From assembly GCA_037355855.1 (NCBI GenBank), contig CM074765.1, positions 4,278,001 to 4,342,000 on the forward strand: DNA of 64,000 nucleotides, in the 5' to 3' direction. This document shows positions 34,452 to 42,689 of this stretch, piece by piece. Positions within the stretch are counted from its first letter, which is position 1. The number at the start of each line of letters is the position of its first letter. Source of the stretch: Pseudo-nitzschia pungens (Eukaryota > Bacillariophyta > Bacillariophyceae > Bacillariales > Bacillariaceae). A program made the translations under genes and the position numbers. The notes below the pieces were generated by a model. That model was not told where the DNA came from and ran no database searches. It saw only the letters and a list, made by a program, of their open reading frames with translations.

Positions 34452-34546
34452 AGTACGGAATTCCTATCAGCTGTCCCCCGGCTTCCGTCGAAATGAGTAT
34501 TTGGGGATGTAGAACCGGGGGACAGCTGATAGGAATTTTGTAGTAC
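34452..34546. repeat. 95-bp foldback MITE, family 1, copy 3
   Basis: Same length and orientation as the copy at 614-708. The TIR GGAATTCCTATCAGCTGTCC is identical, and the body differs from copy 1 at only a few positions. The outer dinucleotide is TA at both ends. Confidence 0.8.
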
Positions 34547-34855
34547 GTTAAGGTTACGGTAACGAGCCATCTGTCGTATATCCCATAACTACCGTACGAC
34601 ACACAAAGAAACAATCTAGTTACGGATTTCAAAAAAATGTTTCTACAACCTAAAGGTTCTCCATAACCAATGACCTACTAAGACTTACCTCCGGTCCGGA
34701 ATACTGCAGCTTTTAGCACATATTTTTGAACTTGGGATCAATTTTTAACCGATTCAAATGATTCTTTTTGGGTCAAACTCTCCTCAACAAACTCCCTATG
34801 CCTGGAGCGGTCGGAAATAGAAAAACGTGCGCACCGCGCGACAGGTTAAGTTTTT

Positions 34856-35178
34856 GGACATGGGTCGAAACCACACTTTTGAAAAGTGCGAATATACACT
34901 TTTTTAACTTTGCTACTAATACTTACACTCCTACCCACGGAAACCAACAACAACCCCAACAACCCAACAATCCCAACCCCAACAACAACAACAACAACAA
35001 CAACAACCCCAACAGTGTTAAGAGTGGTGCAGTCGAGGTGCAAGTGTTTCGGTGATTCGATTGCTGGAGAAGAAGAAGAACATGGGTAATGTATGTAAGG
35101 TTACCGGTACAATAGTTTAAAAGTGTGGGTAAAAAGTGTGGATTAGACCTAAAATAAGTGTGTTAACGAACGGGTACC
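34856..35178. mobile_element. 323-bp nested insertion in the left TIR of element A
   Basis: Element B reads AGGTTAAGTTTTTTCAAAAT at the matching place, whereas element A has 323 extra bases flanked by TAAGTTTTT at 34847-34855 and 35179-35187, a 9-bp duplication. The insert ends share an imperfect inverted repeat (GGACATGGGTCG against GGTACCCGTTCG, then CACACTT). It contains a CAA-rich tract at about 34943-35010. A 9-bp duplication suits a Mutator-like MITE; that class is inference. Confidence 0.75.
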
Positions 35179-35930
35179 TAAGTTTTTTCAAAATGATACG
35201 TATGAACTTACCGTACATACTACGGTACATATATCAACGTGTGATTTACGTATTAATACGTAGAATGAGATAAGTAACATGAAAAAAATCTCCACGATAG
35301 GGGGAACCGGGAAACTCAAACCGGGAAACTAAAAATAGTTGTTTTTGGTTCACGTAATTAATTAATTACGTACGTAATTAATATTACGTACGATTGGATT
35401 TAATTACGTACGATTGCAGTTAATTACGTACGATTGAAGATTAATTACGTAACTATGTGGCTTAATTAGGTAAAGTAGCCAATTTAAAGATGCAATAATA
35501 ATTTAAACCTGCCCTTACGAATGTAAAACATAAGCCTTTTATTAAAGCCTCCAAATTGCTTCAATTTGATGACAAGGACGATGTATGCGCCTTTTAAAGT
35601 GCCGCTAACAGCGTTACCCAAGTTGAAGTAGGGGCTATCATCGCCACTTCTAAACTTACCGTTATACTGCAGAAACGCCCGTTTAAGTAGCGCTAATTAA
35701 GTACGTAAATAAGCCGAGTAATAAATGCTCCCCTAAGTGACGATTATAGCCTCTGCATGTGGCGATTGAAGCCCCTTTAAATGGTGATGGATCTATAAGT
35801 GACGCTTATAGCCCCTTTCATTGGGGCTCATAGCCTCTTTCAGTGGCGCTGATAGCCCCTTTTAGTGGGACTGCCCCTCTCAGTGACTCTGATAGCCCAT
35901 CTTAAAAGTGTCTATTTACAGGACGATGCT

Positions 35931-36262
35931 GTATAATCGACGCGTTGCTCCTTCTTGCTGCTGCTCGCTGCCCCCCCCCCCCTGTATTTTCGACGCGTTG
36001 CTGCTTGCTGCTGCTTGCTGTCCCCCCCCTGTATTATCGACGCGTTGCTGCTGCTTGCTGCTTGCTGTCCCCCACCTTGCTGCTGCTTGCTGCCCCCCCT
36101 GTATTATCGACTGCTGCTTGCTGTTTGTATTATCGACGCGTTGCTGCTTGCTGCTGCTTGCTGTCCCCCCTGTATTATCGACGCGTTGCTGCTTGCTGCT
36201 GCTTGCTGTCCCCCCCCTGTATTATCGATGCGACGCATTGTTGCTTGCTGTCCCCCCTGTAC
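35931..36262. repeat. Minisatellite of element A
   Basis: Tandem units built from GTATTATCGACGCG, TTGCTGCTTGCTG and a C-tract of variable length (about 5-13). Unit length is about 36-50 bases because TTGCTGC blocks vary in number. Identical in type to the right arm of the array in element B (40998-41186), which starts with nearly the same first unit. Confidence 0.85.
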
Positions 36263-37037
36263 TAGATTTTTTTTTCTACATATATCCCTGTACAATTTGT
36301 ACTGGAAAATCGAATTTTTTGATTGGCTCATTCACTCAGCGAAGTAAAGTGCCCTGAACCCTACCTTACGGTACCTTACCAGTAAAGGCGCCATTGCTGA
36401 CAGCCCCCGAACATAACCCAGTTGGGATCTTAGTAAGTGGCTATCAGCAGCACTTTAAATGGCGTGTACGTACAGGTAACCTTACGGCAGAGTGACTTCT
36501 AGGGTGACTTTTTGCGCCACTTAAAGGGGCTTATCTTACCAGTAAAGGCGCCATTTAAAGTGGCGCCGACAGCCCGTATGCTATCAGCGGCACTTGTATC
36601 TTGGCTTAAAATATAACCTAAGCGCTACATCGATAAACTTGAGTAAATTATTATTATGTTATTAGTTGGCTTATTTAATTATTATATAAGCCACTCAAGA
36701 GCTTTGTTGTGAAATCGTGCGTAATTAAATCCAATCGTACGTAATTAAATCCAATCGTACGTAATTAAATCCAATCGTACGTAATATTAATTACGTACGT
36801 AATTAATTAATTAGGTACGTAATTAATTAATTACGTAAAAAAAACCCAATTTTTAGTTTCCCGGTTCCCCCTTTTTAAATTTGAATCGTGGAGATTTTTT
36901 TTACTTATCTCATTCTACGTATTAATTCGTAGATCACACGTTGCTATATGCAGTATGTACGGTAAGTTCATATGTATCATTTTGAAAAAACTTAACCTGT
37001 CGCGCGGTGCGCACGTTTTTCTATTTCCGACCGCTCC

Positions 37038-37384
37038 TGGTTAGACACTAGTTAGGCTAGTGGTATTGGTCTACCTTTCATTGGGACTCAAAGTCAGCTG
37101 TTACTGCCCTAGAAATGTGATTTTACCTGGAAAGCTTACAAATTCTACACATTTCTACGCTAAACGATACAGTATTTGGACCGCACACAGAAGGGTAATC
37201 GATACAGTATTCCGGACCAGAGGTAGTATATGACAATTCCAAAGCTTTTCCATGTCTGTTTGCTTTTGTCAAGATAATTTCAACAATCCATTTTTTTGAG
37301 ATTGATACGGTACGGTACTAAAGTGGTTTGATCCAAACTTATGACAACGGTTGAGACTCCTCGTTTATTGTTCGTCCCAATGCA
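37038..37384. other. Spacer between element A and the HA gene
   Basis: 347 bases containing the 3' flank of the HA-domain gene. No further feature recognised. Confidence 0.5.
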
Positions 37385-38889
37385 CTAGGCGTTCCAGTCG
37401 AACCAAATCTGGTTCAGGAGGACCCGCTGGGCCGGATCGAGGCCCTTGCTCTTCCGCTGCCTCTGGCACCAATAGTAGAGCTCCATGTGGTCGTAATCGG
37501 AGCTGGTGGGTTCCTTGATCGTCCGGCGGCTCGATTTGAATTGCACCAGCCGGCGGTACATCATCTCCCAACCCTTTCCATCCGCTCCTCTCGGACATTC
37601 GCGTCCCACACGAAGCCGACCTGGTTGAGAAGTTCTACCCGGTAGCGCTGCAGCCGGTTCTGGGTGTAGCGCTGGCGCTGCACGCTGACCCAGTAGCCGA
37701 GCCTGCAAGGCGCGGCCCCCTTTCGTCTCTCCAGGGTGATGGGTTCGTGGACGTACTTGGACGGGACCCTCACCGAACCAGAGTGCTCTTTCTTGTACTG
37801 CTTGAGGACATCGTACATCTTCATCCAGTTGTTGTGGCACTTTTCCTTTGTGGGTTCCCACTGGAAGCCAATCTTGTTCAGGAGTCTCTTGTGTTTGGGG
37901 TCCATCCAGTCCCGTTGTTTCCGGATCCGGTTCATCCGCTGGTAGGTGTCTTTGGAGGGATCCTCGGCCGTTCTGTGATTTTTCTTGTTTTCGACGATCT
38001 TCTCGTATACGTAATGGAACTCTAGCTCGCTCCGGGCAACAAGTTGCTTCCATTCCGTGCATTCAAAATCGACGACCTTGGTGAGGAGGGACCGGAACTC
38101 CGGCGGGATCTTGTTGTATTTCAACAGTTGCCTCTGCCTCCGGATCCACGGCCCCAGAAGCCGGTTTCGCCGGTAGTGAAGGGGGACGGCGGTCGATCCC
38201 ATATGCCTTGACTTGTAGATTAGAAGGTCCTCGAACATTTCCATCCAAGCGACTCTGTCATCGTTGGTGAAAACTGGTTCCATTAGATCGTCGTCGTTGT
38301 CGTCGTCGTCATCGATCACAATTGTATCTATTTCTGCTATTGGTTTCTTCATTGCTGTTTTTGTTTTTGTTTCTGTTGCTGATTCTGTTTCTGTTGTTGC
38401 TGGTTTCTTCGTTTCTGTTGTTGCCGTGACACAAGGAGGTATCATTGTCGCTTTCTCCTCGTCGTCCAGACCGTCCAGATTGAAATCGTCTCGATGCAAA
38501 AGCGTCAACACGTCCTCGAATTCCTCTTCGTCTTTGTCGGTTGCATCGGAAGCGGTGGATGTCGGTGCTGCTGACCGTTGTGTTGCCGAAGCTTGTGCAT
38601 TCGTTCCATCGACTCGTGTGCAATCATTGCGGTCCCTGGTGTTCGTCCTTGTCGTGGTCGCTTGTGACACTGCTTTTGCGACCGCTGTCGGTTCGAGTTT
38701 GACGATAGGTGCCTGACTGAGAGGTGGCTGGCCGATAGATAAGGACTGACTGCTAGTAGGTGCCTGACTGAGCGATACCTCGGGAAAGGGACCGGACGGC
38801 AACAACACGGACTCGTACAGACTCATGTACGGATGTTCCACCACGTCTTGGGCGTCCGGTCGATCATAATTCGATTGGAGGAACGTCAT
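37385..38889 (-). CDS. Helicase-associated (HA) domain protein, one frame break
   Basis: From ATG 38889 to the stop at 37385, about 500 residues. The N-terminal 210 residues are Thr/Ser/Asp/Glu-rich with a poly-Asp run. Then come four repeats of the HA type, each with W, a basic centre and a final GFxW: WMEMFEDLLIYKSRHMGSTA, LLNKIGFQWEPTKEKCHNNW, GYWVSVQRQRYTQNRL with LLNQVGFVWDANV, and the last ending LLNQIWFDWNA. HA domains accompany some helicases and occur as free-standing repeats in large diatom families; a nucleic-acid role is presumed. A -1 frame change near 37567-37573 is needed to join ERMERV to WEMMYRRLVQFK. The gene lies between two copies of the palindromic element. Confidence 0.7.
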
Positions 38890-39056
38890 TGCGAGTGAAT
38901 AGTGTGTGCGATTGATTTTCGAAAGTCGATGTAGTGGTTGTTATGGATTGGATTGGATTGGATTGGATTGGATCGTTGCGGAATTGACCGCAATGGATTG
39001 TGTCGGATTATTGGTATATATGCAGAAGTGTGTAAGGAACATCTTGCCCTTATCGT

Positions 39057-39120
39057 TACTACAAAACTTCCTAACAGCTGTCCGTCGCTTCTACGTACCT
39101 TTGTTATAATTTCTACGTGG
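39057..39120. repeat. Degenerate half copy of MITE family 1
   Basis: TTACTACAAAACTTCCTAAC and AGCTGTCC match one TIR of the 95-bp foldback family. The body CTTCTACGTACCTTTGTTAT resembles the inverted copy at 2962-3056, but no second arm remains: element B begins eight bases further on. Confidence 0.5.
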
Positions 39121-39127
39121 ACTTGCG

Positions 39128-42037
39128 GGAGCGGTCGGAAATAGAAAAACGTGCGCACCGCGCGACAGGTTAAGTTTTTTCAAAATGATACGTATGAACT
39201 TACCGTACATACTACGGTACATATATCAACGTGTGATTTACGTATTAATACGTAGAACGAGATAAGTAAATGAAAAAATCTCCACGATTCAAATTTAAAA
39301 AGGGGGAACCGGGAAACTAAAATCGGGAAACTAAAAATAGTTGTTTTTGGTTCAAGTAATTAATTAATTACGTAATTAATTAATTACGTACGTAATTAAT
39401 ATTACGTACGATTGCAGTTAATTACGTACGATTGCAGTTAATTACGTACGATTGCAGTTAATTACGTACGATTGAAGATTAATTACGTAACTATGTGGCT
39501 TAAATAGGTAAAGTAGCCAATTTAATGACGCTATAATAATTTAAATATGCCCTTTATCAATGTAAAACATAAGCCTCCAAATTGCTTTTAATTTGATGAC
39601 AAGGACAATGTATGCGCCTTTTAAAGTGCCGCTAACAGCCACATATTCGGTACCGTACGGTACGTACAATCTACGACTTGCACTTGTAAGTGGCAAGTTG
39701 AAGTAGGGGCTATCATCGCCAACTTAGGTATACGCGCCATTGAAAGTGCCGCTGATAGCCACCTATTCGGTACGGGCTGTCGGCCACTGTCGGCGCCACT
39801 TTAAGTAGTCACTCTGCCGAAGAAATGGCTGTCGTGATGAGCCAATCAAAAAATTCGATTTTCCAGTACAAATTGTACAGGGATTTATGTAGAAAAAAAT
39901 TAATACAGGGGGGACAACAAGCAGCACAGAAAGCAGCAACGCCTCGATAATACAGGGGGGGGGACAGCAAGCAGCAAGCAGCAACGCGTCGATAATACAG
40001 GGGGGGGGGGGGACAGCAAGCAGCAGCAGCAAGCAGCAACGCGTCGATAATACAGGGGGGGGACAGCAAGCAGCAACGCGTCGATAATACAAACGCGTCG
40101 ATAATACAGGGGGGACAGCAAGCAGCAACGCGTCGATAATACAGGGGGGGGGGACAGCAAGCAGCAAGCAGCAACGCGTCGATAATACAGGGGGGGGGGA
40201 CAGCAAGCAGCAACGCGTCGATAATACAGGGGGGGGGGGACAGCAAGCAGCAACGCGTCGATAATACAAACGCGTCGATAATACAGGGGGGGGGGGGGAC
40301 AGCAAGCAGCAACGCGTCGATAATACAAATGCGTCGATAATACAGGGGGGGGGGGGACAGCAAGCAGCAACGCGTCGATAATACAAACGCGTCGATAACA
40401 CAAGGGGGACAGCAAGCAGCAAGCAGCAACGCGTCGATAATACAGGGGGGGGACAGCAAGCAGCAACGCGTCGATAATACAAACGCGTCGATAATACAGG
40501 GGGGGGGGGGACAGCAAGCAGCAACGCGTTGATAATACAAACGCGTCGATAACACAAGGGGGACAGCAAGCAGCAAGCAGCAACGCGTCGATAATACAGG
40601 GAGGGGACAGCAAGCAGCAACGCGTCGATAATACAAACGCGTCGATAATACAGGGGGGGGGGGAAAAAAGCAAGCAGCAACGAACGCGTCGATAATACAA
40701 ACGCGTCGATAACACAGGGGGGACAGCAAGCAGCAAGCAGCAACGCGTCGATAATACAGGGGGGACAGCAAGCAGCAAACATCAGCAACGCGTCGATAAT
40801 ACAGGGGAGACAGCAAGCAGCAAACAGCAAACAGCAACGCGTCGATAATACAGGGGGGGACAGCAAGCAGCAGCAGCAGCAACCCGTCGATAATACAGGG
40901 GGGACAGCAAGCAGCAGCAAGCAGTAACGCGTCGATAATACAGGGGGGGGCAGCAAGCAGCAGCAGCAGCAGCAACGCGCTGATACACCTATAGTTGTCG
41001 TATTATCGACGCGTTGCTCCTTGCTGCTGCTCGCTGCCCCCCCCCCTGTATTATCGACGCGTTGCTGCTGCTTGCTGCTTGCTCCCCCCCCCCCCCGTAT
41101 TATCGACACGTTGCTGCTGCTTGCTGTCCCCCCCTGTATTATCGACGCGTTGCTGCTTGCTGCTTGCTGTCCCCCCTGTATTATTTTTTTTCTACATAAA
41201 TCCCTGTACAATTTGTACTGGAAAATCGAATTTTTTGATTGGCTCATCACCATTTATTCTCAGCTTCTAGGGTGACTTCCGTTGTACTGCAGAAACGCCC
41301 GTTTAAGTGGCGCTAGAAGTCCTCACTCTGTCGGAGCTGAGTACCGTAGGTACATACTAAGGGGCGTTAATTACCTTAGGGTTTACAAACGCACACTTTG
41401 AAGTGGCGCTGACAGCCACTGTAACGTACGGTAAGATCTTAGTCCTAAGGTTTACGGTGCGGTACTCCGTACCGTATATCTGTCGTTCTAGTACGTAAGT
41501 TACCGGTATAAGTGGCTATCAGCGGCACTTTGAATGGCGCATATACCTTATACGTCTATAGTATCTTGGCTTAAAAAATAGCCTAAGCGCTAACTTGATA
41601 GGCTATAGTAAATTTTTATTATGTTATTATCTAGCTTATTTAATTATGATATAAGCCACTTAAGAGCTTAATTGTGAAATCGTGCGTAATTAAATCCAAT
41701 CGTACGTAATTAAATCCAATCGTACGTAATTAAATCCAATCGTACGTAATATTAATTACGTACGTAATTAAATCCAATCGTACGTAATTAATTAATTACG
41801 TACGTAATTAATTAATTACGTAAAAATAATCCAATTTTTAGTTTCCCGGTTCCCCCTTTTTTAAATTTGATGAATCGGTGAGATTTTTTCATGAACGTTA
41901 CTTATCTCGTTCTACGTATTAATACGTAAATCACACGTTTATATATTTAGTATGTACGGTAAGTTCATACGTATCATTTTGATGAAAAAACTTAACCTGT
42001 CGCGCGGTGCGCACGTTTTTCTATTTCCGACCGCTCC
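39128..42037. mobile_element. Large palindromic TIR element B
   Basis: About 2.9 kb with the same ends as element A (GGAGCGGTCGGAAATAGAAA) and an uninterrupted left TIR. Arms match inward in order: a TACGTATTAATACGTAGAAC region, a GGGGGAACCGGGAAAC box, TAATTACGTACGATTG arrays (39398-39490 and 41690-41790), GCCGCTGATAGCC units (about 39620-39800 and 41290-41540), then a box ending ATCAAAAAATTCGATTTTCC (39845-39864; inverted at about 41219-41238). At the centre two minisatellite arms face each other. The whole element is thus one imperfect palindrome. No transposase is encoded. Confidence 0.85.
39903..41186. repeat. Inverted pair of G-tract minisatellites in element B
   Basis: The left arm (39903-40985) has roughly thirty units of ACGCGTCGATAATACAGGGG with a G-tract of about 4-14, then GACAGCAAGCAGCA. 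The right arm (40998-41186) has about four units in the opposite orientation. Units are about 35-40 bases, and short 18-base ACGCGTCGATAATACAA units are interspersed. One strand of the left arm has no stop codon in any frame for about 880 bases. These frames (292, 388 and 496 residues) are artefacts of the repeat, not genes. Confidence 0.9.
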
Positions 42038-42689
42038 CGCTATGAAACTACTCACAACTCCACTAATTTTGACTAATTACACGTACTTAGAATAAGATTA
42101 CTTGTCGGACGCGTGGTAGACCTAATTAGCCATGTAGTACCGTATCTCATTGCCACAATATTTTTACGTGTAGTTGTCGTGTCTCCCAAAACTACGACAC
42201 ACAAGAAACAATCTATTTATGTATTAAGAAACAAACACATTTTCTCTATGACCGATGACTCAGGTTCTCTATGACTTCTTTAGGTTCTTTAAGACCATTC
42301 AGAGATACGACAGTAGTGCTTATTATCACTTCCCCAAAAAAACGTACGTGATTACAGTACAGTAACTTACGTCGCCATTACCGTATTGTTATTGATTTCT
42401 CGGTTTCTGGTAATTAAGGTTACTACTTACTGTCCTATATCGCTTTCGCAAAACTACGACACACAAGAAACAATTCATTAAGGCTCTGTGTGCTTGTAAC
42501 GGTACCAGGGTTTTATCACATTTTTTGGGTAACCTCAAACTTGTTAAGCCTGACAAATGTCATTGGTTCACTCGTTTCTTATCCGGGTTTCAAAAAAAAA
42601 CTCCGAGTCTGTGTCTATCATTTGTTGTTTCGCTTTTGGTTGCGAAATGTCTACGGTATGTTCTCTTTCTTACTAAAATTCAACAAATC
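42038..42689. other. Intergenic DNA
   Basis: No gene supported. The phrase AAAACTACGACACACAAGAA occurs twice, at about 42187 and 42450, so part of the stretch is duplicated; a similar phrase occurs near 34596. Confidence 0.45.

Follow-up and report, generated by a model that had tools for sequence, protein, structure and literature searches.

PIF/Harbinger-related DNA transposons of the PHIS superfamily are among the closest described systems to the elements analysed here. In the available portion of a 2015 survey (Han et al., PMC4482050), average element lengths were ~4.1 and ~4.5 kb, and NuwaI, listed there from 16 animal genomes only, combined a PIF/Harbinger-related DDE transposase with a 3-bp CWG target duplication, terminal inverted repeats (TIRs) of 12–61 bp usually starting with GGG, autonomous copies of ~4.5 kb and, usually, a Myb/SANT open reading frame (ORF). 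The non-autonomous mPing is moved by PIF/Harbinger proteins (mPing/Pong), and the accessible extracts describe a 3-bp duplication with a variable middle base and a 3-nt donor-derived overhang (PMC4561436, PMC11254759, PMC2836001). Tetris of Drosophila virilis is, in the part of the report at hand, a non-autonomous foldback element whose internal tandem repeats are akin to satellite-like arrays in other places (PMC4079207). In another diatom, Thalassiosira pseudonana, Harbinger-like DNA transposons have been reported, for which the text at our disposal states neither size nor target site and mentions no palindromic derivatives (PMC2806351). The present analysis concerns two elements, copies A and B, in a stretch of 64,000 nucleotides of the diatom Pseudo-nitzschia pungens (contig CM074765.1, positions 4,278,001 to 4,342,000; hereafter the window), and their relatives in the same genome.

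The family of A and B is a foldback-like, outsized PIF/Harbinger family, and A and B themselves are very probably non-autonomous foldback-like PIF/Harbinger (PHIS) DNA transposons moved by the transposase of large relatives. The genome searched comprised 66.9 Mb in 28 contigs (C1, C2, etc. are contig labels). The 28-base TIR end (≤ 3 mismatches) had 84 forward and 79 reverse matches, whereas the reversed control had none; the 163 ends answer the original prediction, which had proposed this search and named a lack of other copies as its refutation. The 220-base end of B matched at 88–95% and nearly full length in at least 21 other places (40 of 164 candidates scored), with partial matches elsewhere. 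Because the copies occur at CNG sites scattered across many contigs, the family is transposon-like, and the replication or recombination role suggested earlier has no support. The other suggestion, an undescribed non-autonomous family, is supported by many copies, target duplications, empty sites of other copies and a likely autonomous partner.

The original prediction had proposed to look for such a partner with the TIR as well. Among the ends listed, six facing pairs of family TIR ends lie 14.4–16.2 kb apart (Table 1). The 319-aa transposase of the C6 element matched PF13359 (DDE_Tnp_4) in Pfam (E = 2e-07, 31.2 bits, cut-off 24.8), and its gene was found in all six large elements: four copies were 100% and one 99% identical over the full length, and the C12 copy was in two reading frames. 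In all six it lies within a TIR pair, and in five it is unbroken. Across the query and 20 of the 133 relatives found, D144 and E255 never vary and D217 almost never does; we take these residues to be the catalytic triad. The named sequences among the 120 relatives listed include 'Psemu1' models, presumably of Pseudo-nitzschia multiseries, and a Cylindrotheca fusiformis record. Matches of at least 150 bases between the large elements and A, B and other copies were mainly in the terminal 600–800 bases, with two ~160-base matches further in at the right end. The six 14–16 kb elements are likely the autonomous partner of A and B. The C6 and C2 elements were 98.8–99.8% identical in their long alignments, apart from one containing tandem repeats (97.7%), and from this near-identity their movement was probably recent.

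Besides the transposase gene, all six large elements carry genes for a 510-aa protein (the C2 copy with two in-frame TGA codons) and a 176-aa protein. ORFs of 941 and 486 aa were open and > 99% identical in C6 and C2, the two of six copies checked, and the 129-aa ORF of C6 had no counterpart above the filter in the C6/C2 comparison. The 510-aa protein has at least two database relatives (identity 49% over 64% of its length and 31% over 78%), which points to a real conserved gene. Neither it nor the other accessory ORFs had a domain above the Pfam cut-off, a homologue search with residues 245–486 of the 486-aa protein found nothing, and the predicted structure of the 510-aa protein (mean pLDDT, a per-residue confidence score, of 43) was too poor for use. 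Below the cut-off, C6 ORFs matched TMEM240, Cytochrom_B559a and BHD_2, and a 109-aa ORF had ten weak matches, the best to Rv3627c_N at 3e-05. A viral origin of the 16-kb element, considered for its size and ORFs, was rejected, with no viral family in Pfam or NCBIfam. In a scan of viral contigs that reaches close relatives only, the transposase had six pattern matches, none confirmed, and the 510-aa protein none; B had no megablast match among phage records.

Target sites were compared in 48 facing pairs drawn from the ends listed (~100 of 163 and ~100 of 150 places), with the pair L044/L045 and unpaired ends excluded. Of the 48 left flanks 47 had a CNG triplet outside GAGCGG, and of the 48 right flanks 46. 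An exact 3-bp duplication was present in 35, as against 706 of 2256 mispaired flanks (31%, p = 4e-9), and a match at length 4 in one; the flank alignment of many copies proposed earlier for this purpose gives a 3-bp CNG duplication. CAG/CAG or CTG/CTG (CWG) accounted for 30 pairs, and CSG was used too.

For the empty-site search, the flanks of six mismatched copies (C6, L062, L064, L065, L069 and B) were joined, and 40 of 653 candidates were scored. The best 40 matches span the junction without a break, 11 for the L069 flank and 29 for the L064 flank. Each of the twenty that were fetched (9 of 11 and 11 of 29) was a plain empty site with a single CNG; in both host repeats, that of L069 and that of L064/C11, the empty sites are uninterrupted. 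These sites confirm the insertion of other copies, not of A or B. For C6, L062 and L065 no spanning match occurred among the 44 listed, which carries little weight, as even their own flanks were not among them. The last 72 bases of the left flank of B had two 86% matches (G000:C5:1478986-1479056 and 1479572-1479642), which stop at the insertion point.

Where the two duplications of a copy differ, they nearly always do so in the middle base alone (12 of the 13 pairs without a match; the thirteenth is CCG/CCA). In copy L069 the left triplet is CTG and the right one CCG; all nine empty sites read (11 listed) are CCG. L064 is flanked by CAG (left) and CTG (right), and its 11 empty sites read (29 listed) comprise ten CTG and one CGG; C11, in the same kind of host repeat, has CTG/CTG. 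The large C2 element lies within a unit of a minisatellite array whose other units have ATACAGGGG; its present flanks are CAG (left) and CTG (right). The new middle base is on one side only in all three (n = 3 with a known original site), which fits carry-over of a donor overhang, and the foreign base appears to come from the previous donor site. In the carry-over model, the donor triplet travels as an overhang, and chance decides at each end whether the donor or the target base is kept; under full carry-over 15.8 of 48 pairs are expected to be unmatched, and 13 were observed. Excision sites in yeast led to the proposal that mPing of rice has a 5′ overhang of three bases derived from the duplication (PMC4561436), and the presence of donor-derived TTA at targets cut by Cas9 has been reported (PMC11254759). 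As far as the available parts of these reports go (PMC4561436, PMC11254759, PMC2836001), the non-matching mPing duplications were built for the assay and natural mixed-middle copies are not described; likewise, in the portions of the literature at hand no description was found of natural copies combining mixed middle bases with known empty sites.

By the mechanism we propose, A and B, which keep the TIR and some hundred subterminal bases per end and no genes, would be excised and inserted at CNG by the transposase of the six 14–16 kb relatives, with the 20-bp subterminal arrays as its probable guide. Cleavage would probably occur with a 3-nt stagger outside the element, leaving the excised element with a 3-nt overhang of its old site; joining of this overhang to the new site would place a foreign middle base in one duplication. 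The palindromic form probably arose by the joining of two inverted half-elements.

Several points weigh against this reading. No transposition was observed. No spanning match for the joined flank of B was among the 44 listed, an absence that says little because two repeated flanks accounted for the matches. C8 (CCG/CCA) and C7 (CAA/CAA) deviate from CNG, and flanks are common to copies in three cases (L071/072 with L101/102, L083/084 with L085/086, and C11 with L064), so that 45 of the 48 sites are independent. PIF/Harbinger elements usually have a Myb/SANT partner protein, and none was found in 16 ORFs of C6 with Pfam or in four with NCBIfam, a search that leaves room for intron-split genes. 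The middle-base differences could also have come from later exchange between copies, in those without an empty site, or from error-prone filling of the 3-nt gap. Gap filling rather than donor-base carry-over is an unlikely source, though one to be taken seriously: it, too, would change one side only in copies whose empty site is known, but its changes would not be restricted to the middle base (p = 1.7e-5 for 12 of 13 at random positions), the mismatch rate is near the carry-over expectation, and mPing is reported to have carried its donor TTA at Cas9-cut sites (PMC11254759, partial text). The test of position loses force if C and G are required for insertion, since carry-over and copy exchange could then likewise alter the middle base alone.

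Two other identities were weighed against a PIF/Harbinger-related family. Mutator and P duplications are 8–9 bp long, and here the duplication is 3 bp and none of the 48 pairs matched at any length from 5 to 10; because of this length, a foldback element of one of these superfamilies is largely refuted and highly improbable, even though most described foldbacks belong to other superfamilies and, in the accessible text on Tetris, Mutator- and P-related foldbacks likewise have long inverted repeats with internal tandem repeats (PMC4079207). The only transposase found within family TIRs in several copies is of the PF13359 type. Other frames were found in single loci (piggyBac-like in L059, a Tc1-like fragment in L062) or in two (Ty3/gypsy in C11 and C8), and look like nested insertions because each was in one or two loci read. 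Less probable still is that the palindrome and G-tract array form a structure of the host, be it a replication origin, a recombination site or a fragile site, and that their ends resemble those of a transposon by chance. The G-tracts of up to 13 bases, the conserved CCAAT-like head and the great genome-wide abundance of the minisatellite unit would suit such a structure, but the copies have target duplications and empty sites, and the array is missing from both large elements read and present at seven loci without a TIR.

The 18-base core of the minisatellite unit had 3602 + 3510 = 7,112 genome matches (≤ 1 mismatch; control 0). Units were present in all 16 short copies or loci (A, B, C11, C8 and L059–L070, of which L062 holds more than one set of ends), and no unit was found inside the large C6 and C2 elements, the two read. 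Seven loci (L131–L137, from the first listed contig C1 matches) have units and no TIR in the fetched stretch. The conserved head, CCAAT-like and then AT-rich, had 211 genome matches (≤ 3 mismatches) and was present in 16 of 16 short copies, three of the seven TIR-less loci and neither large element. TIR and array are separable, since the array is absent from both large elements and present at the TIR-less loci; for the latter reason the minisatellite is not a hallmark of the family, and it is a passenger shared between kinds of locus. At L158 and G000:C1:4763190-4763984, an array with the same head adjoins a different PF13359-type transposase gene (31% identical), and the minisatellite may travel with several PIF/Harbinger families.

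Within the window, the description in the original prediction of shared ends, sizes and layers was borne out: A and B have common TIRs, 20-bp subterminal arrays at both ends and a central minisatellite. The exact ends lie one base further inward than first placed, with GAGCGG starting the elements at 34805 and 39129 and their last bases at 37036 and 42036; the G counted earlier is part of the CNG duplication. Of the three subterminal repeat classes proposed, the 20-bp array is clear, and the GTGGCGCTGATAGCC class is dispersed and present in the large elements too. Self-inverted matches covered B to 100% at a tolerance of 700 bases and 87% at 500, A to 29% and five shuffles of B to 0; with the array masked they still covered 42% of the total length of B, which is roughly three quarters of what remained unmasked. 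As had been stated, nearly all of B is palindromic, and A is so to a much smaller extent. Unit counts (≤ 2 mismatches; 29 plus then 4 minus in B, 0 plus and 6 minus in A) agree with the minisatellite in both orientations in B and one in A. Neither copy encodes a transposase, as noted earlier, and ORFs of ≥ 100 aa inside are repeat read-throughs only.

Compared with the described systems, the family has the two superfamily features, a PF13359-type DDE transposase in the likely autonomous partner and a 3-bp target duplication with empty sites of other copies. The CWG duplication of NuwaI is the prevalent one; unlike NuwaI, the family has TIRs starting with GAGCGG after CNG, large elements of 14–16 kb, no Myb match and longer accessory ORFs. 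It was not filed as NuwaI, as the GGG start is absent and a Myb partner was not found. The target of mPing is TWA, not CNG, and that element is 430 bp long (PMC4561436, in part). Foldback structure (long inverted repeats, internal tandem repeats, little middle) is present in B and in L066, L068 and L070, which are likewise fully covered by self-inverted matches, and not in A; the other nine copies of L059–L070 had 17–88% coverage. Tetris, as far as the source extends, has the repeat within the TIR and no autonomous copy was found (PMC4079207), whereas the diatom genome contains a likely source of transposase, and its minisatellite is found at loci without TIRs as well. Copies of 2.2 and 2.9 kb with varied interiors do not resemble classical miniature inverted-repeat transposable elements (MITEs), which are homogeneous and under about 0.8 kb.

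A new non-animal PIF/Harbinger-related lineage, with a CNG rule, a size of ~16 kb, at least four accessory proteins in place of Myb and regular donor-overhang splicing, is a tentative proposal that we regard as quite possible. If true, the CWG target rule extends beyond animals, and the mixed middle bases of natural copies record part of the previous address of an element. The family is three to four times the usual size (against the averages in the available part of PMC4482050) with conserved extra proteins, and its foldback elements have a likely transposase source in the same genome. Mixed duplications with known empty sites make donor-overhang joining, a proposed step of PIF/Harbinger insertion, checkable on natural copies.

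Table 1. Positions of copies A and B and their parts (window coordinates) and of the large elements with family ends (contig coordinates).
Feature	Position	Strand	Basis
Copy A, non-autonomous TIR element, 2232 bp	34805..37036	.	Exact ends and family matches
Left target duplication of A, CTG	34802..34804	+	Flank comparison
Right target duplication of A, CTG, matches left	37037..37039	+	Flank comparison
Left TIR of A	34805..34855	+	Inverted self-match, exact ends
Right TIR of A	36986..37036	-	Inverted self-match, exact ends
20-bp subterminal array, left of A (putative binding sites)	35359..35451	+	
20-bp subterminal array, right of A	36713..36785	-	
G-tract minisatellite of A, single orientation	35929..36261	-	
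Conserved head of A minisatellite, CCAAT-like then AT-rich	36269..36331	-	
Copy B, near-complete palindrome, 2908 bp	39129..42036	.	
Left target duplication of B, CGG	39126..39128	+	Flank comparison
Right target duplication of B, CCG, differs in middle base	42037..42039	+	Flank comparison
Left TIR of B, 54 bp	39129..39182	+	Inverted self-match
Right TIR of B, 100% complementary to left	41983..42036	-	Inverted self-match
20-bp subterminal array, left of B	39401..39489	+	
20-bp subterminal array, right of B	41678..41811	-	
Minisatellite head, left, B	39834..39926	+	Inverted self-match
B minisatellite, plus orientation, 29 units	39908..40979	+	
B minisatellite, minus orientation, 4 units	40999..41184	-	
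Minisatellite head, right, B	41158..41250	-	Inverted self-match
Large element	C2:6334605-6350252		
Large element	C6:3070483-3086660		
Large element	C7:2185282-2200472		
Large element	C9:45226-61267		
Large element	C10:2348057-2362407		
Large element	C12:1581620-1597806		

Several copies hold other sequences. C8 (11.8 kb) and C11 (14.2 kb) were rejected as autonomous elements and are short copies with nested retrotransposons, given the Ty3/gypsy-like open frames inside and, for C11, a stretch present in many near-identical copies. In L059 (G000:C2:2937137-2943589), a 901-aa open frame with a piggyBac-type DDE_Tnp_1_7 match and a weak SAP match below the cut-off is probably a nested element. L060 (G000:C4:1946033-1951289) and L061 (G000:C1:1022177-1027448) are ~4.9 kb long, alike and in opposite orientation; an open frame of L060, which had no match in Pfam, resembles by eye what we take to be a prolyl-4-hydroxylase fragment, and host gene capture is possible. 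The same 20-base flanks in opposite orientation were found at G000:C5:5601468 and 5687500, and at C2:5509906 and C8:2498054; such pairs are probably duplicated segments that include the element.

Between A and B lies a helicase-associated (HA) repeat gene (37561-38889, minus strand). A composite transposon of A, this gene and B was unsupported: A has its own CTG/CTG, and the outer ends are CTG and CCG, a mismatch that alone is not decisive. Just inside the left TIR of A, a 323-bp insert (34856-35178; region 34847-35187) absent from B has the 9-bp direct repeat TAAGTTTTT at both edges and contains a tandem run of CAACAACCC; it resembles an additional small transposon with a duplication of 9 bp. 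Just upstream of A, at 34464-34536, a short inverted repeat (CTATCAGCTGTCCCCCGG...CCGGGGGACAGCTGATAG) is possibly another small element, and a similar word, CCTAACAGCTGTCCGTCGC, is located near 39070, upstream of B.

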